NCBI GenBank assembly: GCA_946408315.1
Contig: CAMJRV010000028.1
Span: 1-12,620 of the forward strand
Length of the DNA: 12,620 nt
DNA from: an uncultured Bacillota bacterium
Lineage (GTDB): Bacteria; Bacillota; Clostridia; Peptostreptococcales; Anaerovoracaceae
Reading direction: 5' to 3'
Shown here one piece after another: positions 1,131-10,286 of the stretch. Both the position numbers and the translations under genes were made by a program. The notes beneath the pieces were generated by a model. The model was not told the DNA's origin. It did no database searches and saw only the letters and a list, made by a program, of their open reading frames with translations. The number at the start of each line of letters is the position of its first letter. Position 1 is the first letter of the stretch.

Positions 1131-1667
1131 CTAATAGTCTATCTTTTCAAAGGCGGAGGCTTTCCCCTCCTGCATTGTGTTTCCATTTACCAATTCCAAT
1201 AGCCGTTTTACTGCCGCTTCCGGAAAATCCGCGGGCTGCTTTTCGCTCAGTAAAGATTCTAAAAGCTCGCCAACGGTCCGGCTCTGAGGGAGCATGTACC
1301 CCGATTCCCGCAGCATATCTTCCGCCATTAATCGATTGGATTTACCGAGCGCCTCCGCCAGTTGGCGCAGCACGGGATTACCTGTGGTTTCCGCGAGCTT
1401 TGAAGCGATCTCCTCCTGATCCATCTTGCTTGCCGCTAAAGTTAGAAGAGCGTTTTTAACAGAAACCGTCTTCTCCTGCTGCGGTGGAAATTCAGCCGGG
1501 ATTAATGATATTGCATGGGATGGGCAGGCATCTACACATGCACGGCACCCGCTTAAACACTTGGAAGCGTCAATCTGGCCAGTCTCCGTATCGGTTGCCC
1601 CGGTAGGACAAACATATAAGCAGAGACAATCCTTTGTACATAATCTGATATTTCGAACTGCATGCAT
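1131..1667 (-). CDS. Two-cluster 4Fe-4S ferredoxin-like protein with helical C-terminal domain
   Basis: The predicted product has 178 residues. Two cysteine motifs fill the first 50: C10, C14, C16, C20-Pro, then C37, C41, C44, C48-Pro, each followed by the ferredoxin-type PTGA or PSHA turn. Spacing is unusual: C-x3-C-x-C-x3-C-P and C-x3-C-x2-C-x3-C-P instead of C-x2-C-x2-C-x3-C-P. The remaining 120 or so residues are predicted helical, contain no cysteines, and match no domain I can name. I start at ATG 1667 rather than 1745 because an AAAGGGGG site lies just upstream and the ferredoxin homology begins there; the earlier start would overlap the rubredoxin gene. The rubredoxin-fusion stop is only four bases away and overlaps this ribosome binding site, so the two are probably translated together. 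A role in electron transfer is inferred; the partner is unknown. Confidence 0.85.
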   Translation of the reverse strand: MHAVRNIRLCTKDCLCLYVCPTGATDTETGQIDASKCLSGCRACVDACPSHAISLIPAEFPPQQEKTVSVKNALLTLAASKMDQEEIASKLAETTGNPVLRQLAEALGKSNRLMAEDMLRESGYMLPQSRTVGELLESLLSEKQPADFPEAAVKRLLELVNGNTMQEGKASAFEKIDY

Positions 1668-1671
1668 TGTA

Positions 1672-2343
1672 TTACCCCCTTTGGATTTGTGCAATTTTAA
1701 GATTTGGGACCTTGCATACGGGGCAGATTTCGGGAGCTTCATCACCTATGTACACAAAGCCGCATATCTCGCAAACATAAACATTTGTATTTGCTAATAA
1801 AGTTTCTCCCTGTTTTTCGTATCGACTCAAAAGAGAGGACAGAATCCGGGTAACCTTTTCTCCCCAAGTCAATGCTCTTAACGCACCTCGATCCGAGACG
1901 GCTGCCGCGCGGCGGTTTGCGTTTTCATATCCTGAACTCAAATCAGCTTCTATCAGAGCCGCCAAATCGGAAATCTGCGCTTCAAAAGCTGCAGAGCTTT
2001 TGCTGTCATAGTATTCTGCAAGCTGGCGGAACAAATCCGCTTCTTCGTTTCGGTATTGCTTTTCGCAGCCTTTTGAAAGATTTGAGCAGAGCGCGCTCAG
2101 TTCTTTAAACGACAGTTCCCGAATCTTCTCCTGATGCTCCTCATCGAGAGAAGATTGTTTTTTCTCCTCCGGAATTACCGTTTCCTGTTCCTTGAATTCA
2201 ACCTTTGTTGCGCCGCACAATGGACAAATCCAGTCTTCCGGCAGATCTTCCCATTTTAAACCGGGAGCAATGCCGCCTTCCGGGTATCCAAGCGATTCGT
2301 CATAAACAAAACCACAGATACCGCACACAAATTTTCGCATCAT
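1672..2343 (-). CDS. Rubredoxin / helical domain / rubrerythrin-type rubredoxin fusion
   Basis: This 223-residue protein has three parts. Residues 3-50 are a full rubredoxin with an Fe(Cys)4 site at C7, C10, C40, C43 and the usual long loop between pairs. Residues 65-185 are a predicted helical domain rich in Glu, Leu and Ala. Residues 188-223 are a short rubredoxin-like knuckle (C191, C194, C207, C210) with the 12-residue loop typical of rubrerythrin C-termini. The middle part sits where rubrerythrin has its diiron four-helix bundle, but I cannot find the usual E-x2-H pairs; its only His is near residue 70. Peroxidase activity is therefore doubtful, and electron transfer or sensing is as likely. 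AGGAGG lies five bases before ATG 2343; ATG 2340 is an equally possible start. It probably supplies electrons to or from the adjacent ferredoxin. Confidence 0.87.
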   Translation of the reverse strand: MMRKFVCGICGFVYDESLGYPEGGIAPGLKWEDLPEDWICPLCGATKVEFKEQETVIPEEKKQSSLDEEHQEKIRELSFKELSALCSNLSKGCEKQYRNEEADLFRQLAEYYDSKSSAAFEAQISDLAALIEADLSSGYENANRRAAAVSDRGALRALTWGEKVTRILSSLLSRYEKQGETLLANTNVYVCEICGFVYIGDEAPEICPVCKVPNLKIAQIQRG

Positions 2344-2390
2344 TCATCCCTCCTGTATGTTTTTACAAATTTACATTTACTGGCTCCTAA

Positions 2391-2723
2391 TTAATGCGTA
2401 TAATCTAAAATGGTGATTTCTTCCCCGACTTTTGCGATGATAGCCGACTTCATTTTGTCAGCATGAGGACAGGCAAATCCGATTGGATTTCCTCTGGTTA
2501 TGCAGGAAGCAAAAGCAATCGTATCGGCGCCTCTTTTCACCATCTCTGCAGCTCTTGTTATTGCCTTCTTACCTGGGCACCCCCCACAGGAAATAAAGCC
2601 TATTACCTCGATTTCATCCTGGACGCCCTCAAATGCGAGCTTCTTTTCTTTTATGACCTTAAAATCGGTTGTTCCCGGGCACATATCTTCCGTCTGCATA
2701 CACCTTATTACTCCGACTTTCAT
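2391..2723 (-). CDS. CGGC-domain protein
   Basis: This 110-residue cytoplasmic protein matches the CGGC domain family (PF08821), named for the motif seen here as SCGGCPGKK (45-53). Six cysteines are spread along the chain (8, 15, 46, 49, 74, 85), including FASCITRGN and FACPHADK segments typical of the family. The family is thought to bind metal or take part in thiol chemistry, but no reaction is established. Its length is normal for a single-domain member. The ATG at 2723 begins one base beyond the stop of the C_GCAxxG_C_C gene, so the pair is almost certainly translationally coupled, which suggests a shared job. A gap of 47 bp with no evident promoter or terminator separates it from the rubredoxin-fusion gene downstream. 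Confidence 0.88.
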   Translation of the reverse strand: MKVGVIRCMQTEDMCPGTTDFKVIKEKKLAFEGVQDEIEVIGFISCGGCPGKKAITRAAEMVKRGADTIAFASCITRGNPIGFACPHADKMKSAIIAKVGEEITILDYTH

Positions 2724-2724
2724 T

Positions 2725-3165
2725 CTATTTCACCAAGCCCTTCTCCTCAAGGAATTCTGCCAGCATCTTACTTGTATTGCCGGTTATTTTCAGGCAATTG
2801 GTCAAATGCTCTTTGGTTTCAAACGGATATGGATTTAATGCCCGGCAGCATGTTACATTATATTTTTCAGTAAACTTGTCGGTAAACTCCTTGGCCAGTT
2901 GATAGGCTTCATCTCTGGACTTTTGATTCGTTGATCTTCCTTTGATCATATTAAGCGCCGTAATTGATCCGGTCAACGCGCCGCACATACAGCCGCTTTC
3001 CCCCACTCCGCTTCCGAATCCGGTCATTAGACTTACCAAAGAAGGATCTAAGTCCGGCGCCAATAATTCACGATAAGTTAAAAATATTGATTCGGCACAA
3101 TTGTATCCCTCTTTAAAATAATTTCCTGCTTTGTTTCTTGCCTCGATAACCATTTCTTCACTCAT
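2725..3165 (-). CDS. C_GCAxxG_C_C family protein
   Basis: This 146-residue protein shows the pattern that names the C_GCAxxG_C_C family (PF09719): GYNCAES (C23), SGCMCGALTG (C59, C61), the pair C106-C107, and C124. Family members are redox proteins, some with selenocysteine in place of a cysteine, found mostly in anaerobes. Their reaction is not known. All key positions here are ordinary cysteine codons. GFGSGVGESG (49-58) forms the glycine-rich stretch ahead of the central motif. The ATG at 3165 has a GGAAGGGGAAAA-like site upstream. It follows the NifX-like gene by 17 bp and abuts the CGGC gene, so all three are probably expressed from the promoter at 3614-3642. Confidence 0.88.
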   Translation of the reverse strand: MSEEMVIEARNKAGNYFKEGYNCAESIFLTYRELLAPDLDPSLVSLMTGFGSGVGESGCMCGALTGSITALNMIKGRSTNQKSRDEAYQLAKEFTDKFTEKYNVTCCRALNPYPFETKEHLTNCLKITGNTSKMLAEFLEEKGLVK

Positions 3166-3182
3166 GATTTTTCCCCTTCCTT

Positions 3183-3575
3183 TTAATGCGTATGACCGGC
3201 TTCGCCACAGCCGGTGGTGCCTTCCAGATTGCGAATCATATTTAATTCTCGCTTCTCCATCTTTTCCAATGCGATAGAAGCCTGATACCCTGCCCCAGAA
3301 TATCTAGTAATACAAGCATCCGCAATCAGTTCGAATTCGGCAGAATCTAAACTCCCGGTAATAACGGCTTCACAATCGTAAGTAATCAGCTCCTGCGCCA
3401 ACTGGCGGCCGGATTCTTTTTCCCGATTCTCTAAAATAATTGTTTCTTTTATCCTTGGAGTTTTTCCTATCGATTGATCATCTATATTAACAATCAATAA
3501 ATAACTACAAGTATTGAACTTCTCAGATACCTTGCTATTAAGGCTTTCACCATCAACTGTTATTCCAATGTTCAT
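3183..3575 (-). CDS. NifX/NifB-like (dinitrogenase iron-molybdenum cofactor family) protein
   Basis: The product has 130 residues and is of the NifB C-terminal/NifX/NafY type (PF02579), an RNase H-like fold. The start MNIGITVDGESLNSKVSEKF, the central stretch QLAQELITYDCEAVITGSLD (59-78) and GAGYQASIALEKM (94-106) are typical. Proteins of this family carry iron or iron-molybdenum cluster precursors in nitrogen fixers, but stand-alone clostridial copies are common without nif genes and their cargo is unknown. The C-terminus TTGCGEAGHTH adds a Cys and two His that could bind metal. I start at ATG 3575 because GGGGAGG lies just upstream and the family homology starts there; the longer frame to 3635 would begin inside the operator. 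No nif genes are visible here. Confidence 0.85.
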   Translation of the reverse strand: MNIGITVDGESLNSKVSEKFNTCSYLLIVNIDDQSIGKTPRIKETIILENREKESGRQLAQELITYDCEAVITGSLDSAEFELIADACITRYSGAGYQASIALEKMEKRELNMIRNLEGTTGCGEAGHTH

Positions 3576-3607
3576 TTTTCCTCCCCTTAAGATGGTCTCT
3601 ATATTTT

Positions 3608-3642
3608 CCCATAATTGTATCGCAATTATGGGCATACGTCAA
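3608..3642 (-). promoter_or_regulatory. Sigma-A promoter with 25-bp inverted-repeat operator before the NifX-like gene
   Basis: On the minus strand, TTGACG (3642-3637) and TACAAT (3619-3614) are separated by exactly 17 bases, a strong promoter, with transcription expected to start near 3607. A perfect 10-bp inverted repeat, CCCATAATTG and CAATTATGGG around a 5-base centre (3608-3632), covers the spacer and the whole -10 box. A protein bound there would block polymerase, so I infer repression. The regulator is unknown. It would drive the NifX-like, C_GCAxxG_C_C and CGGC genes and possibly those beyond. Confidence 0.8.
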
Positions 3643-3667
3643 TTTCATTTGGTATTTTGTCGTATAG

Positions 3668-4192
3668 TTATATATTTGAATAAATCTCCTGCCTTTCTTC
3701 CTGAGATAATATCTTCTCCGTGAAATATGCAATCACCGCGATTCCAACGATATCAAGCAGGAGCCGAAGCACCGTAAATTTCACGCCTAGAGCCGATGCC
3801 TCAAATAACAGAAGCGGGACTTTCGTTGTTGACCATGCTCCCATCATAATAAAAACATTTGATAACTTACTCCCCTTTTTAAGGAGTACCCCTGCCACTG
3901 GAAAAGCTCCATAAAGCGGCCCTGCCGCTGCCGAACCAATAAAAAATGCAAGCAGAACACCAATCAGACCCGAGCCTTCCCCCATATATTTCACCATCGT
4001 TTCCCTTTTCACCCAGACGTCCAGAAGTCCAAGCAAGATAAAGATGGGCGGAATGACCGAAAGCATATCGATCATATTTGACTTTGTTATCATGAGCGAT
4101 TTTATCCCTATGTCGGGCCAGACAGCGATCATAATACCGTTTAATACCGCAAGCAATAAAAACACCCTGTATCTCTTGATTATTTTTTTCAT
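3668..4192 (-). CDS. Permease half 2 (PF03773-type)
   Basis: This hydrophobic protein of 174 residues has about five predicted membrane segments. It matches the predicted-permease family PF03773, whose ArsP members export organoarsenicals. Residues 70-107 carry a glycine-rich block, G-x-G-S-G-x2-G-V-L then IGS, a Pro and GAFPVAGVLLKKG, that mirrors the same block in the upstream gene. It has no cysteine, so the thiol-based substrate binding proposed for ArsP is unlikely. I start at ATG 4192: it overlaps the preceding stop as ATGA, a classic coupling arrangement, and hydrophobic family sequence begins there. The longer frame to 4453 is out-of-frame reading of the upstream gene. The protein is half the size of typical permeases of the family, so it likely pairs with its neighbour. 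Substrate unknown. Confidence 0.8.
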   Translation of the reverse strand: MKKIIKRYRVFLLLAVLNGIMIAVWPDIGIKSLMITKSNMIDMLSVIPPIFILLGLLDVWVKRETMVKYMGEGSGLIGVLLAFFIGSAAAGPLYGAFPVAGVLLKKGSKLSNVFIMMGAWSTTKVPLLLFEASALGVKFTVLRLLLDIVGIAVIAYFTEKILSQEERQEIYSNI

Positions 4193-4662
4193 AATACAAT
4201 CCCCATAATCAACGCTACAACCAACGAGAATATAAATGCCGACCCATTCCTTGCAATCGTAGCCTTCTTGCCAAAATACTGTTTTTCCAGCGGCATCGTT
4301 ACAATTCCCACCATCATTAACGTAGATACAAAAGCAGCGATTTGCATATATCCTGCCCCATTTTGCAGAAGCGCTGCCGCCAGTGGGAATGCAACAAAGG
4401 CAGGGACCAATGTGATTGATCCTATGGCTGCGGCAATCAATACGCCAACCCAACCTGATTCAGTTCCAAGCAGACCTGAAATTTGTTCCGGAGTAAGAAC
4501 CGCCAGCATCACCCCAATAATGATCAGGATCGCAAGCAGCTGCGGCAAAAGATTCTCGAAGGACTTCCAAGCTTTTTTCAAGGCCTGTTTCGTCTTTTCT
4601 CTGCTCTTGAAAAATGATAATGCAAGTCCCGACAAAGCAAGTACATAAAACGTAATCGTCAT
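4189..4662 (-). CDS. Permease half 1 (PF03773-type)
   Basis: The product has 157 residues and about five membrane segments: an N-terminal hydrophobic helix (1-18), a charged loop (19-34), then helices near 38-57, 70-100, 106-124 and 140-157. The block at 66-104, with S-G-x2-G-V-L, IGS, a Pro and AFPLAAALLQNG, is shared with the next gene, showing the two halves are paralogs. It contains no cysteine. The ATG at 4662 has a TAGGAGAG ribosome binding site and follows a likely extended -10 promoter (4697-4705). Its stop overlaps the start of half 2. The family transports metalloid or other small solutes, but the substrate cannot be read from the sequence. It is the first gene of the minus-strand series rich in cysteine and Fe-S proteins. 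Confidence 0.8.
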   Translation of the reverse strand: MTITFYVLALSGLALSFFKSREKTKQALKKAWKSFENLLPQLLAILIIIGVMLAVLTPEQISGLLGTESGWVGVLIAAAIGSITLVPAFVAFPLAAALLQNGAGYMQIAAFVSTLMMVGIVTMPLEKQYFGKKATIARNGSAFIFSLVVALIMGIVL

Positions 4663-5152: not shown

Positions 5153-5818
5153 TCATTTTGACAACAATATTATCTCCTTTGAATTGTAATTTATCAGGTT
5201 TTCCTTCTTCATTTTATTTAATTCCCTGCTCAAAGACGTCCGCTGAACGCCGAATTTCTCTGCCATTTCTTTTTTCGTCATTGGTAATTTAATAGCATCA
5301 CTATTTTGCTCTATATATTCCAACTCCAAAAAATCTAATATTTTTTGTCTTAATGTTTTCATTGCAATCGAATTGATTTTATCCGTCAAGATTAGCGAGC
5401 GATCTGATATTGACTCCAGCAAATGAGCCATAAAAACTTGATTACACTTGCATAGATCCAGGATTGATCCTTTACTGAGATGTAATATCGTAGTTTGAGA
5501 CGCTGCCATGACGTTAAAAGGATAATCGTTTCTTGTTGAGAAAATCAGGTTTACACCGATGGCATCCCCCTTATTGAAGGTATTGATTATTAAAACGTTT
5601 CCTTCTTCATCGATTTTCTGCACGGAGACCTTACCTTCCAAAATAATATCGATAAACCGACAATCCTCTCCCTCCAAATGAATGATTTGCCCTTTCGAGT
5701 AAACCAAAACACTGCATTCAGGCGGATCAAGTATGTCGTTTAACTGATCTGCGGTAAGTCCTTTGAGGAGCTTGATCGAATTAATGCTGCGAAAAATACT
5801 TTTCATAATTTTCCCCAT
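5153..5818 (-). CDS. Crp/Fnr-family transcription regulator
   Basis: The protein has 221 residues, normal for the family. Residues 20-125 form the cyclic-nucleotide-binding-like beta-roll (glycine positions in SKGQIIHLEGE and EGKVSVQKIDEEG). A long dimerisation helix runs from about 127 to 170, and the winged helix-turn-helix follows (TKKEMAEKFGVQRTSLSREL, 181-200). It lacks the N-terminal cysteine cluster of FNR, so it is not an FNR-type oxygen sensor of known design; its few cysteines (35, 53, 123, 125) are internal. The effector is unknown. ATG 5818 has GAGG six bases upstream; ATG 5806 with GGGGAAAA before it is an alternative. It is divergent from the polyferredoxin gene, with a perfect palindrome between them that it probably binds. 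The upstream 70 bp contain no other gene. Confidence 0.87.
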   Translation of the reverse strand: MGKIMKSIFRSINSIKLLKGLTADQLNDILDPPECSVLVYSKGQIIHLEGEDCRFIDIILEGKVSVQKIDEEGNVLIINTFNKGDAIGVNLIFSTRNDYPFNVMAASQTTILHLSKGSILDLCKCNQVFMAHLLESISDRSLILTDKINSIAMKTLRQKILDFLELEYIEQNSDAIKLPMTKKEMAEKFGVQRTSLSRELNKMKKENLINYNSKEIILLSK

Positions 5819-5819
5819 T

Positions 5820-5862
5820 AGTTACCTCGGTAACTCCCAAATGTTTTTATTCGTCATATAAT
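5820..5862 (+). promoter_or_regulatory. Palindromic operator and -10 box of the polyferredoxin promoter
   Basis: AGTTACC-TC-GGTAACT (5820-5835) is a perfect inverted repeat. A TATAAT at 5857-5862 predicts a start at 5869, so the palindrome centre (5827.5) lies at -41.5, the class II position of Crp/Fnr activators, and no -35 box is present. The same palindrome overlaps the ribosome binding site of the divergent Crp/Fnr-type gene (GAGG falls at its centre on the minus strand), suggesting autoregulation. That the neighbour binds here is inference. Confidence 0.72.
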
Positions 5863-5888
5863 TTCGACAATGAAAGGAGTTGAGTTTC

Positions 5889-6530
5889 ATGATTAAAAAA
5901 GTATACAATACGAAGAATAAAGCATTGCAAACGATCACCCAACTAATGTTTCTACTCCTGTTTTTCGCCCTTCTACCAATGGGCAAAATACAGCTATGGA
6001 TGGGGTTATTTGTTATGGGAATCATTGCGTCAGCATGGTGCGGCCGCATATACTGCGGCTGGATTTGCCCTATTAATACTGTAATGAACTATGTAGCTTG
6101 GCTAAAGAATAAACTGCACATAAAAAGCATTGCGGTTCCGTTATTTTTGGAGAAACCCTCGATACGGTTCATCGTTTTGGCGGCGTTCCTCGCGACATTC
6201 TTAGCATCCGTTATCTCAGGAGTAAAGCTCCCTGTTTTGCCTGTTGTTTTCATGTTAGGAGTTATAACGACATTCCTCTATCCTCCCGATTTATGGCATC
6301 ATAAGCTATGTCCATTCGGAACCATATTGAGCTTACCCGCGAGATTGTCCAGACATTATATGCGGATCAATCCATCCAAATGTGTGAACTGTGGGATATG
6401 TTATCAAATATGCCCTGCCAAGTCAGTTAAAAGATCGACTGATTCCCATCAAATTATTAAGAGCGAATGCCTTGTATGTATGAAGTGCTCCAGAAAATGT
6501 CCTAAAAATGCGATAACATATCATCAGTGA
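5889..6530 (+). CDS. NapH/NosR/CcoG-like membrane polyferredoxin
   Basis: The 213-residue product starts with two or three membrane helices (about 13-30, 35-50 and, after a loop, 92-130). The motif CGRIYCGWICP (51-61) and HHKLCPFG (137-144) are the cysteine signatures of the NapH/NosR C-terminal/CcoG-type membrane ferredoxins. Two canonical clusters follow near the C-terminus: C165, C168, C171, C175-Pro and C194, C197, C200, C204-Pro. Known relatives move electrons between membrane quinol or carriers and reductases, or take part in metal-site assembly; no partner reductase is visible here. I start at ATG 5889 with AGGAG nine bases upstream; the TTG at 5880 abuts that site. Expression is probably activated through the palindrome at 5820-5835. 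A cytoplasmic electron carrier such as the small ferredoxin at 4891 could be its partner. Confidence 0.87.
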   Translation: MIKKVYNTKNKALQTITQLMFLLLFFALLPMGKIQLWMGLFVMGIIASAWCGRIYCGWICPINTVMNYVAWLKNKLHIKSIAVPLFLEKPSIRFIVLAAFLATFLASVISGVKLPVLPVVFMLGVITTFLYPPDLWHHKLCPFGTILSLPARLSRHYMRINPSKCVNCGICYQICPAKSVKRSTDSHQIIKSECLVCMKCSRKCPKNAITYHQ

Positions 6531-6652: not shown

Positions 6653-7087
6653 GTGGACTTTGATTTATCAAAATGTATTGGTTTTGTCACTTCTACGGCA
6701 ATTAAGACCGTTACGAAGGATTTTAACAAGCGCATGGAAAAATGCGGTTCTACCAGGATACAGTGGATTGCCCTGTACTTTTTGCTAAAGTCGGAGAAAC
6801 CAATGAGCCAAAAAGAGCTAGCCGCCTTGATGAATATTGAGGATCCTTCCCTGGCCAGGCTGATCGATCGAATGGAGAGAGACCAATTGCTCCGGCGGGT
6901 CGAAAACCCTAAAGATAAGCGAATGAAAATCCTGGAGCTTACTGAAGTCGGGCGGTTAAAGGCAGAGAGCCTGATGCCTTATGGACAGGAATTCAGTGAC
7001 TTACTGTTAGAAGATATCACAGATGAGGAAGTAGAGATCTTTCAAAAAGTTTTAAAAAAGATGGTGCGAAATATAGAAAAGAGATAG
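6653..7087 (+). CDS. MarR/OhrR-like regulator with N-terminal cysteine
   Basis: The product has 144 residues with the MarR fold: helix 1 (3-30), the DNA-binding helices (SQKELAALMNIEDPSLARLIDRM, 52-74), the wing (RRVENPKDKRMKILELTEVG, 81-100) and C-terminal dimerisation helices. A cysteine in the first helix, C8 in LSKCIGFV, is placed like the peroxide-sensing cysteine of OhrR (LCF motif); C31 is a second thiol. I favour GTG 6653 because GGAGG lies 11 bases before it; ATG 6635 overlaps that same site and has none of its own. The gene has its own promoter and terminator and lies directly upstream of the AhpD/Lpd/LplA operon, whose promoter has a palindrome, so it is the obvious candidate for its repressor. 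Thiol sensing is inferred from residue position only. Confidence 0.86.
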   Translation: MDFDLSKCIGFVTSTAIKTVTKDFNKRMEKCGSTRIQWIALYFLLKSEKPMSQKELAALMNIEDPSLARLIDRMERDQLLRRVENPKDKRMKILELTEVGRLKAESLMPYGQEFSDLLLEDITDEEVEIFQKVLKKMVRNIEKR

Positions 7088-7101
7088 CGTAAATGCAAAT
7101 G

Positions 7102-7127
7102 AATGACCTCAGGCAGGTCATTTTTTT
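7102..7127 (+). terminator. Intrinsic terminator after the MarR/OhrR-like gene
   Basis: AATGACCT (7102-7109) and AGGTCATT (7115-7122) form a perfect 8-bp stem with a five-base loop, followed by a run of T to 7127. It separates the regulator from the operon whose promoter starts four bases later. Confidence 0.87.
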
Positions 7128-7130
7128 ATA

Positions 7131-7170
7131 TTGACAATCTATAAATAGTTGCTATACTAATTATTAGTAT
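7131..7170 (+). promoter_or_regulatory. Promoter with 17-bp palindromic operator for the AhpD/Lpd/LplA operon
   Basis: TTGACA (7131-7136) and TATACT (7153-7158) are 16 bases apart. An exact inverted repeat, ATACTAAT-T-ATTAGTAT (7154-7170), covers most of the -10 box and the start point (near 7165). Length, symmetry and A+T richness fit a MarR/OhrR-type site, and binding would repress. The match to the upstream regulator is inference from position. Confidence 0.82.
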
Positions 7171-7210
7171 GTTAATATTTTATCGTAAATTTTATTAGGA
7201 GGGTAATGAA

Positions 7211-7564
7211 ATGGCGAAAAATGTAAGAGAAATGCTGAACGACTTTGTAGGAGGGCTTGGAAGCCTCGGAGAAACAAATGGCGCGATGGTAGACGCCTTT
7301 ATGGGGTTGCTTGGAGCTGCCTACGAACCAAATGCATTGGATCTGAAGACAAAAGAACTGATCAGTGTAGGAATCGGCTGTTACAACAGATGCGAATATT
7401 GCATCGTATACCATTCCTATAAAGCTTTTGAGGCGGGCGCAACAAAAGAAGAGATTCTGGAAGCTGCTATGGTTGCCGTTGCTTTCGGAGGCGGACCTTC
7501 TATCGCGTATTCCGTTACTTTATTAAAGGATTGCATTGCAGAATTTGAAAACGATTTTAAATAG
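7211..7564 (+). CDS. AhpD-like alkylhydroperoxidase (carboxymuconolactone decarboxylase family)
   Basis: The protein has 117 residues and is of the all-helical CMD/AhpD family. The full AhpD catalytic pattern E-x11-C-x2-C-x3-H is present as E49, C61, C64, H68, followed by the usual KAFEAGATKEEI (71-82). C57 is an extra cysteine nearby. In Mycobacterium tuberculosis AhpD the CxxC pair reduces peroxide and is itself re-reduced by a lipoylated protein recycled by dihydrolipoyl dehydrogenase. The next two genes encode a lipoyl-bearing dehydrogenase and a lipoate ligase, so the same chemistry is likely here. ATG 7211 has AGGAGG ten bases upstream. It is the first gene of a tight operon, nine bases before the next. 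Non-peroxidase CMD functions remain possible, but lack of the CxxC pattern would be expected for a true decarboxylase. Confidence 0.88.
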   Translation: MAKNVREMLNDFVGGLGSLGETNGAMVDAFMGLLGAAYEPNALDLKTKELISVGIGCYNRCEYCIVYHSYKAFEAGATKEEILEAAMVAVAFGGGPSIAYSVTLLKDCIAEFENDFK

Positions 7565-7573
7565 GAGCAGCAA

Positions 7574-9268
7574 ATGGTACAGATCATACTGAATAAATTA
7601 TCTGGCGAGGATAAAAGTGCAAAGGTTGGGAAAATCCTGGTGAAGGTCGGTCAGAAAATCCAAGAAGGTGACGGCTTGTTCAACGCGGAGTCTGCAAAGG
7701 GCAATTTTCTGGTAAAGTCCGAATACAAAGGAACCATAGAAAGCATATTGATCGAGGAAGGCCGCCAGGTCAAAATCGGCGAAGCCATTGCAGAGATCGA
7801 CGGAGAAAAGGTCATTAAAAAACCGGAGCAGATAAATAAGGGATATTGCTTTGGACTGGCAAAGCCGAGGAAAGAAGATATCACCTGTGATGTCGCTGTG
7901 ATAGGCGGAGGTCCCGGGGGATATGTCGCAGCAATCCGGGCCGCGCAGTTGGGAGGAAGCGTCGTACTGATCGAAAAAAACAAAATCGGAGGAACCTGTC
8001 TGAACACCGGCTGTATTCCGACGAAAAGTTTTGTAAAGAGCGCACACCTCTTTGATGAAATACATAGGAGCGCCGAGTTCGGCATAAAAGTCGGTCAGCC
8101 TGAGCTTGAGCTTGCGCGGATTGTCAGCCGGAAGAACGAGGTGGTTACAAATTTATCCGATGGAATCCGGTCGCTTCTGGACTATTGGAAAATCCGATTC
8201 ATTGAGGGAGAAGCGACGGTTTCAAAGGACCTGATTTCCGTGAAGAACAGTAAAATCGAAGCTACGATCCAGGCAAAAAACATCATTCTCGCCACAGGCT
8301 CCTCCCCTGCCAGATTAAATATTCCGGGCGCAGATTTACCAGTCGTCCTTACCAATGAGGAAATTCTGAATCTCAAAAAGATCCCGGCATCTCTTACCGT
8401 CATCGGAGGCGGAGTGATCGGCATGGAGTTTGCGTTTATATTCAACTCCTTTGGAAGCAAAGTGACCGTCATCGAGTATCTGGATGATATTTTATTCAAC
8501 TTTGATGAAGATATGATTGAGATCGTAACAGAGGAATGCAGACAGCGAGGGATTCAATTATACACGAATTCCAAGGTGGAAGAGATCTCCTTGGCGGAAG
8601 ACGGTCAGGCCATCACTGCTTTTTCCCGGGATGAGAAACACTATGTCGTCGGTGAAACCGTTTTGATGGCGGTCGGCAGAAAGCCGAACCTATCCTCCGT
8701 CGATTTGGCTGAGCTTGGTGTTGCCCTGAATGCAAAGCAAAACGGAATCGAAGTGGATGATTACATGGCTACCTCCAGCAAATCGGTCTACGCAATCGGA
8801 GATGTCACGAATAAAATCCAGCTCGCTCACGTTGCCAGCCACCAGGGCATTGTCGCCGCAGAAAACTGTATGGGAAAAGCAAGCGTTATGGATTATACCG
8901 CAATTCCGAGCGCCGTATTTTTATCTCCGGAGCTTGGCGTGGTCGGCCTTTGCGAAAAGGAAGCAAAACGAGTTGGGATTCCTTACAAAGTCAGCAAATT
9001 TCCATTTTGTGCAAACGGAAAAGCGTTGAGCCAGGGAGAGAAAAAGGGATTTGTAAAAATCCTTTATCATGAAGAAAATCATCAGATACTGGGCGCCGCC
9101 GTAATCGGGCCCGGAGCTACCGATTTAATCTCGAATTTCACCTATTATATTCAACATAAAACGGACTACCGGACGCTGAGCCATCTTATTTTTGCGCATC
9201 CAACTACGGCAGAATCCGTGCACGAGGCAATACTGGGAATCACCGGGGAGGCAATCCACTTTGTATAA
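7574..9268 (+). CDS. lpdA: Dihydrolipoyl dehydrogenase with N-terminal lipoyl domain
   Basis: The 564-residue protein begins with a lipoyl domain of about 80 residues; the modification lysine is K42 in ESAKGN. A short linker (81-103) follows, then a complete flavoprotein disulfide reductase: FAD motif GGGPGG (111-116), redox disulfide C142/C147 in GTCLNTGCIPTK, NAD motif GGGVIGMEF (278-286), AIGD (407-410), and the C-terminal dimer region with the active-site base H542 and E547 in HPTTAE. It oxidises dihydrolipoyl groups with NAD+, or runs in reverse to reduce them with NADH. The fused domain could act as its own swinging substrate. No E1, E2 or glycine cleavage gene lies nearby, while an AhpD-like gene precedes it and a lipoate ligase overlaps its end; a peroxide-reduction role is thus more likely than oxoacid oxidation. 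AGGAG precedes ATG 7574. Confidence 0.92.
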   Translation: MVQIILNKLSGEDKSAKVGKILVKVGQKIQEGDGLFNAESAKGNFLVKSEYKGTIESILIEEGRQVKIGEAIAEIDGEKVIKKPEQINKGYCFGLAKPRKEDITCDVAVIGGGPGGYVAAIRAAQLGGSVVLIEKNKIGGTCLNTGCIPTKSFVKSAHLFDEIHRSAEFGIKVGQPELELARIVSRKNEVVTNLSDGIRSLLDYWKIRFIEGEATVSKDLISVKNSKIEATIQAKNIILATGSSPARLNIPGADLPVVLTNEEILNLKKIPASLTVIGGGVIGMEFAFIFNSFGSKVTVIEYLDDILFNFDEDMIEIVTEECRQRGIQLYTNSKVEEISLAEDGQAITAFSRDEKHYVVGETVLMAVGRKPNLSSVDLAELGVALNAKQNGIEVDDYMATSSKSVYAIGDVTNKIQLAHVASHQGIVAAENCMGKASVMDYTAIPSAVFLSPELGVVGLCEKEAKRVGIPYKVSKFPFCANGKALSQGEKKGFVKILYHEENHQILGAAVIGPGATDLISNFTYYIQHKTDYRTLSHLIFAHPTTAESVHEAILGITGEAIHFV

Positions 9269-10223
9269 GGTTTACCTGTCACGCAGCGGCAATCCTTATT
9301 TCAATCTTGCGTTTGAAGAGAATCTGGTCCGCCATGCTGATCAGGAGGATCAGATTCTCTTTTTATGGCAGAATCAGAATACGATTGTCATCGGAAGAAA
9401 CCAGAATCCATGGAAGGAATGCAATCTTCAGGAATTGAACCGTCAGAACGGAAAACTGGTCCGGCGTCTGTCCGGCGGCGGCGCGGTTTATCACGATCTG
9501 GGAAATTTGAATTTTACCTTTGTCTCAGCCTATTCGGAAAGGAGAATAGAGGAAAATATCGGCCTTATTATCAGCGCTTTAGCCCTCAATGGAATCGATA
9601 CTGTTTTCAGCGGGAAAAATGACATTCTGGCGCAAGGATACAAGGTGTCGGGAAACGCATTTTTTGTAGAGAATGATATTCTTTGCCACCATGGAACTCT
9701 GCTGGTAGATACCGATTTAGAAAAGCTGAACTGCTTTCTCACAGTCTCTGAGCGCAAATTGCAATCCAAGGGAATCGATTCGGTAAAATCCAGAGTTAGA
9801 AACCTTACGGAATTCAACAGGGCGATCACAATCGAAGGCTTGAAAACAGCCTTAGTAAGCGTATTTACCCCCGGAGACGACGTCATATCCATATTGGAGG
9901 TCGATGAAGACACAATAAAAGACGGTATTTCCAATCAAGAGGCGGTACTACCGCTGATGAAACGCTTTGAAAGCTGGAAATGGAATTTCGGTTCTTCTCC
10001 TGAGTTCAATCTTCAGGTCTCCGAGAGGTTTCCCTGGGGAGAAGTGGATTTATACCTGCTTGTAAAGGACGGCTTTATTGTGGAAGCGGAAGTGGGCACA
10101 GATGCTTTAGACGTCGATCTGCCCCAGAAAATCAGAAATAAAATACTGCTTGAAAAGTTTGATTATCAGACCGTCGTCTCCTTGACAGGTGAGATCGGTT
10201 TCGATGAAAAAAGGCTCCCGTAA
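9261..10223 (+). CDS. lplA: Lipoate-protein ligase
   Basis: The product has 320 residues and is a LplA-type enzyme that activates lipoate with ATP and attaches it to the lysine of lipoyl domains. The catalytic domain shows FNLAFEENL (14-22), the binding loop RRLSGGGAVYHD (68-79), NFTF (84-87), the lysine motif GYKVSGNAF (126-134) and HHGTLLVD (143-150). The accessory C-terminal domain (about 240-320) is present, so it is a full-size ligase. I start at TTG 9261, with GGAGG nine bases upstream, which overlaps the dehydrogenase stop by 8 bp; homology begins at that point, and the frame further upstream lies inside the dehydrogenase gene. Overlap implies coupled expression, and its natural substrate is probably the lipoyl domain encoded just before it. 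Confidence 0.9.
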   Translation: MYKVYLSRSGNPYFNLAFEENLVRHADQEDQILFLWQNQNTIVIGRNQNPWKECNLQELNRQNGKLVRRLSGGGAVYHDLGNLNFTFVSAYSERRIEENIGLIISALALNGIDTVFSGKNDILAQGYKVSGNAFFVENDILCHHGTLLVDTDLEKLNCFLTVSERKLQSKGIDSVKSRVRNLTEFNRAITIEGLKTALVSVFTPGDDVISILEVDEDTIKDGISNQEAVLPLMKRFESWKWNFGSSPEFNLQVSERFPWGEVDLYLLVKDGFIVEAEVGTDALDVDLPQKIRNKILLEKFDYQTVVSLTGEIGFDEKRLP

Positions 10224-10229
10224 AGAGAA

Positions 10230-10286
10230 AAACCAGGCTCGGCGATCATCGCGTGAGCTTGGTTTTATTTAAGCTTGGTTTTATTT
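10230..10286. terminator. Terminator with duplicated 3' arm between the convergent lplA and pcrA genes
   Basis: AAACCAGGCTC (10230-10240) pairs with GAGCTTGGTTT (10255-10265), with one G-T wobble and a further inner pairing GCGA/TCGC, before a T-rich tail. The 3' arm plus tail is repeated directly: GAGCTTGGTTTTATTT (10255-10270) and AAGCTTGGTTTTATTT (10271-10286) differ at one base. It ends the plus-strand operon and may also act on the pcrA transcript. Positions 10287-10329 hold nothing else I can support. Confidence 0.8.

Follow-up and report, generated by a model that had tools for sequence, protein, structure and literature searches.

The window, a 12,620-nucleotide stretch of DNA from an uncultured Bacillota bacterium considered here at its full length, is the 12.6-kb contig C28 of a 67%-complete genome in 589 contigs (G000). 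It carries ahpD, lpd and lplA, genes for an AhpD-like protein, a dihydrolipoyl dehydrogenase (Lpd) with a lipoyl domain of its own and a lipoate-protein ligase, which we interpret, with moderate confidence, as an operon dedicated to defence against oxidants: a lipoyl-dependent thiol reductase that provides for its own maturation. In this reading K42, in the N-terminal domain of Lpd, would receive its lipoate from LplA. Electrons would then pass from NADH through FAD and the C142-C147 disulfide to the lipoyl disulfide on the flexible arm of the same Lpd, or of its dimer partner, and the dihydrolipoyl arm would reduce the C61-C64 disulfide of AhpD. By way of an E49/Y63/H68 proton relay, AhpD would pass the electrons straight to an oxidant, of which an organic hydroperoxide is the likeliest, with no need for AhpC. 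Repression of the operon probably comes from the local MarR-family regulator, acting at a palindrome that covers the -10 element. Comparison with related genomes lends good support to the lipoyl-to-AhpD link and to the self-containment of the unit. The direction of flow, from NADH to AhpD, is one that we infer, and peroxide is a plausible terminal acceptor; other thiol oxidants fit too.

All three genes lie on the + strand, ahpD at 7211..7564, lpd at 7574..9268 and lplA at 9261..10223, with one promoter in front and a terminator behind. The gap between ahpD and lpd is 9 nt, and lplA, from its probable start, shares its first 8 nt with the end of lpd, in agreement with a preliminary description of this DNA that had named three coupled genes for AhpD, a lipoyl-bearing Lpd and a ligase. 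The predicted sigma-70-type promoter (TTGACA-16-TATACT, 7131..7158, +) matches the consensus at 11/12 positions and ranks first among 12 promoter-like sites in 4.8 kb, where 8.2 are expected by chance at the 9-of-12 threshold used. Behind lplA, a terminator-like hairpin (10229..10266, +; -23.4 kcal/mol, z -5.3) has a 3' arm ending in UUUU.

The 117-residue AhpD-like/CMD protein scored 78 bits against PF02627 (cut-off 23) and 51.3 bits against TIGR00778 (cut-off 27.8). Articles are cited here for the parts of their text that were available; in that of PMC3141380, AhpD-like proteins are given a proton relay of five residues, Glu-x11-Cys-x-Tyr-Cys-x3-His, and the window AhpD has all five (E49, C61, Y63, C64 and H68). 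E49-x11-C61-x2-C64-x3-H68 and Y63 were unchanged in 30/30 aligned rows (the window and 29 of 120 listed relatives), which bears out the full E-x11-C-x2-C-x3-H pattern claimed in the preliminary description, and the Glu/Cys/Cys/His motif was found in 33/33 fetched AhpD relatives. The nearest solved relatives are RclX (7y4r), Lpg0406 and TM1620, at ~31-35% identity over the aligned part. A fold model gave a helical CMD fold, but serves as a consistency check only because the TM-scores were near 0.5 and the root-mean-square deviation was high. Named close relatives of both AhpD and Lpd belong to Sinanaerobacter, Aminipila, Anaerovorax and Clostridium lundense.

The 564-residue Lpd scored 533 bits against TIGR01350 (equivalog cut-off 408.8) and has both the CxxxxC pair (C142/C147) and the His-Glu dyad (H542/E547). 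Its residues 1-79 (7574..7810, +) match the lipoyl domain PF00364 at 42.2 bits (cut-off 22.1) and contain the lipoyl motif Ex2Kx10G, as given in the available text of PMC4518038, as E39-K42-G53. These seven residues were unchanged in 40/40 aligned Lpd rows, comprising the window and 39 of 120 listed relatives. An AlphaFold2 model (mean pLDDT 90) showed the N-terminal domain as all-beta, K42 lying between two of its strands, and a low-confidence linker (residues 82-94) joining this domain to the Lpd core. The modelled anatomy is that of a swinging lipoyl arm on its own reductase, and K42 is the likely site of lipoylation, given the motif and the adjacent lplA. LplA, with a probable TTG start at 9261 behind the Shine-Dalgarno sequence GGGGAGG, scored 324 bits against TIGR00545 (cut-off 280) and 40.2 bits against the accessory C-terminal domain PF10437 (cut-off 24), and also matched PF21948. 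A dihydrolipoyl dehydrogenase carrying its own lipoyl domain, and a lipoate ligase, are both confirmed by profile matches over cut-off.

Relatives of AhpD were found in 8/148 family genomes (E up to 1e-15), 10/391 class genomes and 18/398 phylum genomes (both E up to 1e-25), each count including the window's own genome; flanks were fetched for all 33 other genomes. The survey of gene order that the preliminary description had proposed as a check placed a lipoyl-Lpd beside ahpD in 17/33 of these genomes, from ten families (G084, G066, G047, G140, G050, G434, G513, G254, G213, G895, G832, G781, G860, G898, G585, G880 and G581). Twelve of the 17 loci also have lplA, and 12 have a same-strand marR, with other genes intervening in G066. 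The arrangement varies in detail. About 1.4 kb with another open reading frame separates ahpD from the lipoyl-Lpd in G581; G050 has lplA in a different order and two lipoyl-like segments, one of them without an obvious lysine motif; and in G254 lplA stands behind two other genes, one of them an Fe/Mn superoxide dismutase (SOD) gene (L061 8407-9141) that separates it from lpd and runs on the opposite strand. The Lpd of G832 (L068) bears two N-terminal lipoyl-like segments. Beyond the 17, G683 groups AhpD, a free lipoyl protein and LplA, and in G182 ahpD stands behind lipB-lipA. On a tree of 34 AhpDs, association with Lpd required 7 changes against a mean of 11.7 in shuffles (as low in 4/500), so the pairing is clustered on the tree but was gained or lost several times. 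Judged by these comparisons, the ahpD/lipoyl-Lpd grouping is not accidental.

Genome inventories bear on the self-containment of the unit. The unit genomes (n=19) are the 17 lipoyl-Lpd genomes, G683 and G000. E2, GcvH, AhpC, OsmC and LipA were surveyed in 32 of the 34 AhpD genomes (all except G052 and G120) and in 20 controls, which were hand-picked rather than random, came from the listed genomes that gave no match to AhpD, and mostly measure 2.4 Mb or more; Lpd was surveyed in 21 genomes (12 of the 19 unit genomes, five E2-type and four others). E2 (PF00198) was not found in 12/19 unit genomes. Neither E2 nor GcvH exceeded its cut-off in four, G047 (98% complete), G213 (100%), G832 (97%, one contig) and G683 (100%); in G047 a 1147-residue frame matched GcvH at 20.9 bits, short of the cut-off. 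The other 15 have E2 and/or GcvH. G047, G213 and G832 each have a single Lpd over cut-off, encoded within the unit. In a few relatives, then, comparison shows the unit to be the only lipoate system recognised by the profile models used. LipA was over cut-off in 6/19 unit genomes and not in 13/19, so the linked LplA fits lipoate salvage, and for most unit genomes salvage, or some other route, is the probable source of lipoate. In the window's own genome, LipA is encoded on contig C383 and C88 carries an acetoin-dehydrogenase-like cluster with its own Lpd; the preliminary description, which had seen no oxoacid dehydrogenase nearby, was thus right for the 12.6-kb contig but not for the genome. 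A GcvH search of this genome was negative, but at 67% completeness nothing was rested on that result.

Genome content also bears on the last electron acceptor. AhpC-type peroxiredoxins (PF10417) were unmatched in 9/19 unit genomes, five of those 99-100% complete; the OsmC/Ohr family occurred in 6/19 unit genomes versus 7/20 controls; and seven of the 19 (G066, G084, G434, G213, G860, G898 and G880) had neither match. Occurrence in 10/19 and 6/19 rules out AhpC or OsmC as a constant partner. With both surveyed families, PF10417 and OsmC, so patchy, it is probable that AhpD works either on its own or with a different partner. AhpD-like proteins protective against peroxide are described in the available text of PMC8945050. 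Three single cases place an oxidant-defence gene close to ahpD: the SOD gene within the unit of G254, a rubrerythrin gene in G333 and an OsmC-family gene in G661, the last ~1.7 kb from ahpD.

A possibility that we take seriously without favouring it is that the same chain serves another acceptor, AhpD acting as a disulfide-stress reductase on small or protein disulfides or on reactive chlorine or thiocyanate species. In the accessible parts of these articles, Pseudomonas gained allicin resistance from ahpD alone, and disrupting ahpD had the severest effect among the mutations described (PMC7119367), and AhpD-like RclX, whose structure 7y4r is among the nearest to the window AhpD, protects P. 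aeruginosa from hypochlorous acid (HOCl) and hypothiocyanous acid (HOSCN; PMC7950407). The missing constant AhpC or OsmC partner would agree with this; however, the allicin and HOCl AhpDs are distant homologues, and the SOD, rubrerythrin and OsmC neighbours point, weakly, to oxygen-derived stress. We think it unlikely that AhpD merely reduces an AhpC encoded elsewhere, as in the mycobacterial chain, for which Bryk et al. 2002, as cited in the available text of PMC8945050, is the precedent. The window's genome does encode an AhpC-type peroxiredoxin, on contig C11, but its gene adjoins, by eye, a CoA-disulfide-reductase/rhodanese-like gene (L007 203-2793), a separate candidate peroxide system, and 9/19 unit genomes have no PF10417 match, a survey that covers only those peroxiredoxin families bearing PF10417. 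Very improbable, and largely refuted by the genome comparisons, is the reading in which the Lpd supplies the E3 of glycine cleavage or of a dehydrogenase acting on acetoin or a 2-oxoacid, and AhpD is next to it by accident. The Protein Data Bank does name the lipoyl-bearing Lpd 5u25 as E3 of pyruvate and 2-oxoglutarate dehydrogenase, and the cluster on C88 is acetoin-dehydrogenase-like; yet C88 has its own Lpd, the ahpD/lipoyl-Lpd pairing recurs in ten families, and no E2 was found in 12/19 unit genomes, while in four neither E2 nor GcvH exceeded its cut-off. The preliminary description had allowed that the order might be accidental and the Lpd part of an oxoacid or glycine cleavage complex, which does not hold where the unit is kept while E2 and GcvH miss their cut-offs.

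Some AhpD relatives are tied to E2 instead of Lpd. AhpD is fused to a lipoyl-bearing E2 in 3/33 genomes (G608, G653 and G567) and adjacent to E2 in 2/33 (G907 and G816). When the fused E2-AhpD was used as the query of a protein search, 35 of the 120 listed matches (query included; 7241 in all) bore both PF00198 and PF02627, the named organisms among them being Desulfotomaculum, Desulfosporosinus, Desulfofundulus, Desulfoscipio and one Helarchaeota metagenome bin. That AhpD occurs naturally fused to a lipoyl-bearing subunit argues independently that it acts on lipoyl arms. These E2-linked clusters (L080/L082/L081, L079, L083 and L084-L091) resemble acetoin dehydrogenase clusters, with LplA-like enzymes, and some also hold LipB/LipA or LipS1/LipS2-like enzymes. 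We consider it improbable that AhpD is a redox adaptor between lipoyl proteins and a further carrier, replacing E3 in the E2-linked clusters; in the window, such an adaptor could pass electrons from a dithiol through AhpD and the lipoyl group to NAD+. No Lpd over cut-off lies near any of the five E2-linked clusters, or on the same contig in four (two contigs are under 14 kb), yet all five clusters carry GcvH-like lipoyl proteins; G907 has an HdrA-like protein and G608 FAD/CCG-domain proteins, with similar open reading frames seen by eye in G653 and G816. On the other hand, all five genomes have an Lpd elsewhere (in G907 on the same contig, ~390 kb from the cluster), the E2-linked AhpDs form a clade of their own on the 34-AhpD tree (98/96), and the window operon, seemingly ended by its terminator, suggests no reducing substrate.

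Several observations weigh against the proposed oxidant-defence operon. We are aware of no biochemical activity recorded for this AhpD clade, and the E2-linked clusters hint that AhpD may drain lipoyl groups, with electrons leaving a metabolic complex, rather than detoxify. AhpD-like PA0269 is described in the available text of PMC3141380 as a weak hydroperoxidase. PF10417 occurred in 10/19 unit genomes (two marginal) versus 7/20 controls and is not demonstrably commoner in the former. The rubrerythrin gene of G333 and the OsmC gene of G661 adjoin ahpD copies without Lpd, and for 9/33 AhpD relatives (G052, G120, G333, G354, G355, G460, G702, G661 and G572) no lipoate-related gene was seen in the fetched flanks, a count that includes G052 and G120, whose contigs end close to ahpD. 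Finally, G683 has AhpD, lipoyl protein and LplA with no Lpd over cut-off in the profile search, so the NADH/Lpd step is not universal. More tentatively, the AhpD clade might be a general adaptor of lipoyl arms with two uses: an NADH-fed antioxidant unit with its own ligase, regulator and operator, which in some cells would be the sole use of lipoate, and an E2-linked stand-in for E3 that would drain dihydrolipoyl electrons to GcvH-like, HdrA-like or FAD/Fe-S proteins rather than to NAD+.

Upstream of the operon, marR (6653..7087, +) encodes a MarR-family regulator (PF12802, 49.6 bits). Its GTG start at 6653, behind GGAGG, matches relatives better than the longer ATG frame from 6635 and agrees with the start given in the preliminary description. 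An N-terminal cysteine, numbered C8 when counted from the GTG and C14 when counted from the ATG, is kept in the window and in 13/13 readable neighbouring MarR rows, a count that omits the broken reading frame of the G661 MarR (L073); the regulator is thus thiol-bearing, as had been claimed. The reactive cysteine of OhrR is Cys15. Judged from the ends of the match to 1z91, the MarR cysteine falls ~2 residues off the OhrR position; apart from this conserved cysteine, which is not clearly at the right place, nothing speaks for an OhrR. A terminator-like hairpin of nine pairs with a T-tail (7101..7130, +) closes marR and the operon promoter follows at 7131-7158, so marR looks like a transcription unit apart from ahpD-lpd-lplA: the earlier placing of a MarR gene in front was right as to position, but the gene has its own terminator and appears to lie outside the operon. 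G702 and G661, among the genomes with no lipoate gene seen, keep MarR next to ahpD.

A probable operator, TTGCTATACTAATTATTAGTAT (7149..7170, +), overlaps the promoter, and the same box occurs upstream of ahpD in other loci. Its inner 17-bp palindrome, ATACTAATTATTAGTAT (7154-7170, +), overlaps the -10 element, so that the palindrome TTGCTATRCTAATNATTAGYAT sits across the -10 of the ahpD promoter. With up to 3 mismatches, the box was found upstream of ahpD in the window and in 10/33 other ahpD loci, the same loci from which the pattern was derived; the 531 kb of fetched loci, some of which overlap, held no further copy, and neither did one mononucleotide shuffle. Whole genomes (35) were then scanned, 15 of them with the unit or a MarR-linked ahpD (13/19 unit genomes, G702 and G661). 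With at most 1 mismatch, the box was present in 7/15, always at ahpD, and in 0/20 controls; the 15 are a favourable sample that leaves out G050, G832, G683, G585, G880 and G581, which showed no box at ahpD. In four further genomes of this set, the box at ahpD departs from the pattern by 2-3 mismatches, a level at which matches elsewhere are common. A wider regulon was rejected, since 11/20 controls also match at 3 mismatches and 2/20 at 2, and for this reason matches with 0-1 mismatch alone were taken as evidence. Comparison thus shows an operator-like palindrome at ahpD to recur among relatives, and the neighbouring MarR would be the protein that binds it. In G895 the box precedes ahpD though no MarR was seen in the fetched flanks.

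The unit works like, but is not, the Lpd-DlaT-AhpD-AhpC chain of Mycobacterium tuberculosis, which is reportedly an NADH-dependent peroxidase and peroxynitrite reductase. As far as the available accounts of that chain go, both share the path from NADH through Lpd and a lipoyl group to the CxxC relay of AhpD, whereas in mycobacteria the lipoyl carrier is a metabolic E2 and most of the peroxidase work falls to AhpC. In the window the carrier is fused to Lpd and the ligase is co-encoded. The comparison with M. tuberculosis drawn in the preliminary description is right in kind; AhpC, however, is neither in the unit nor matched in every unit genome (9/19 lack it). Other systems share single features, again within the available text of each article. 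Ohr/OsmC lipoyl-dependent peroxidases are likewise reduced by lipoylated proteins and Lpd (PMC4486171, PMC8945050), but belong to an unrelated family whose genes are not in the unit and are present in only 6/19 unit genomes. SirTM operons with LplA2 and GcvH-L combine an operon-specific lipoate ligase, their own lipoyl carrier and a link to oxidative stress; their carrier is GcvH-like, a sirtuin and a macrodomain protein are present, and AhpD and Lpd are not mentioned in the text available (PMC4518038). No sirtuin or macrodomain gene was found among the 16 window proteins scanned. The sHdr/LbpA sulfur-oxidation clusters have a dedicated LplA and a non-canonical lipoyl carrier, but there an Hdr-like complex oxidises sulfur and the carrier is GcvH-like, placing them nearer to the E2-AhpD clusters than to the window (PMC6067878). 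RclX, Lpg0406, TM1620 and PA0269 are AhpD-like with a CxxC hairpin proton relay (PMC3141380); unlike the window AhpD, no lipoyl or ligase partner is noted in the available portions of their descriptions. The lipoyl-bearing Lpds 5u25 and P64k have the same lipoyl-Lpd domain order and are named, in contrast to the window protein, as serving 2-oxoacid dehydrogenases. Both are from Neisseria. Examples of such Lpds occur in acetoin and pyruvate dehydrogenase operons, and the pairing of a lipoyl-bearing Lpd with AhpD and LplA was not previously known to us. A literature search found no description of the lipoyl-Lpd/AhpD/LplA unit, which is weak evidence of novelty as its coverage was thin for subscription papers and preprints and partial for others.

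In the usual view lipoate belongs to central carbon metabolism as a cofactor, and antioxidant systems such as that of mycobacteria borrow it. The compact operon described here, present in at least ten families, seems to reserve lipoate for redox work and brings carrier, reductase and maturation enzyme together; in three nearly complete genomes the models used recognised no lipoyl protein or Lpd other than the unit's. Where dehydrogenase complexes are lacking, such a unit could account for the Lpd and LplA genes of a genome, and annotation of Lpd or LplA alone is no ground for inferring pyruvate dehydrogenase or glycine cleavage. The lipoyl-to-AhpD step is directly testable with the three co-encoded proteins.

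The remainder of the window holds further features. Its left end has a cobalamin riboswitch aptamer (18-199, -; RF00174, 114.7 bits). A redox gene group at 1131-4662 (-) encodes two ArsP-like permease halves and NifX-like, C_GCAxxG_C_C and CGGC proteins, together with a rubredoxin/rubrerythrin-domain protein and a ferredoxin-like protein. Between this group and marR, at 5153-6530, lie a divergent CRP/FNR-family regulator and a NapH-like membrane ferredoxin.

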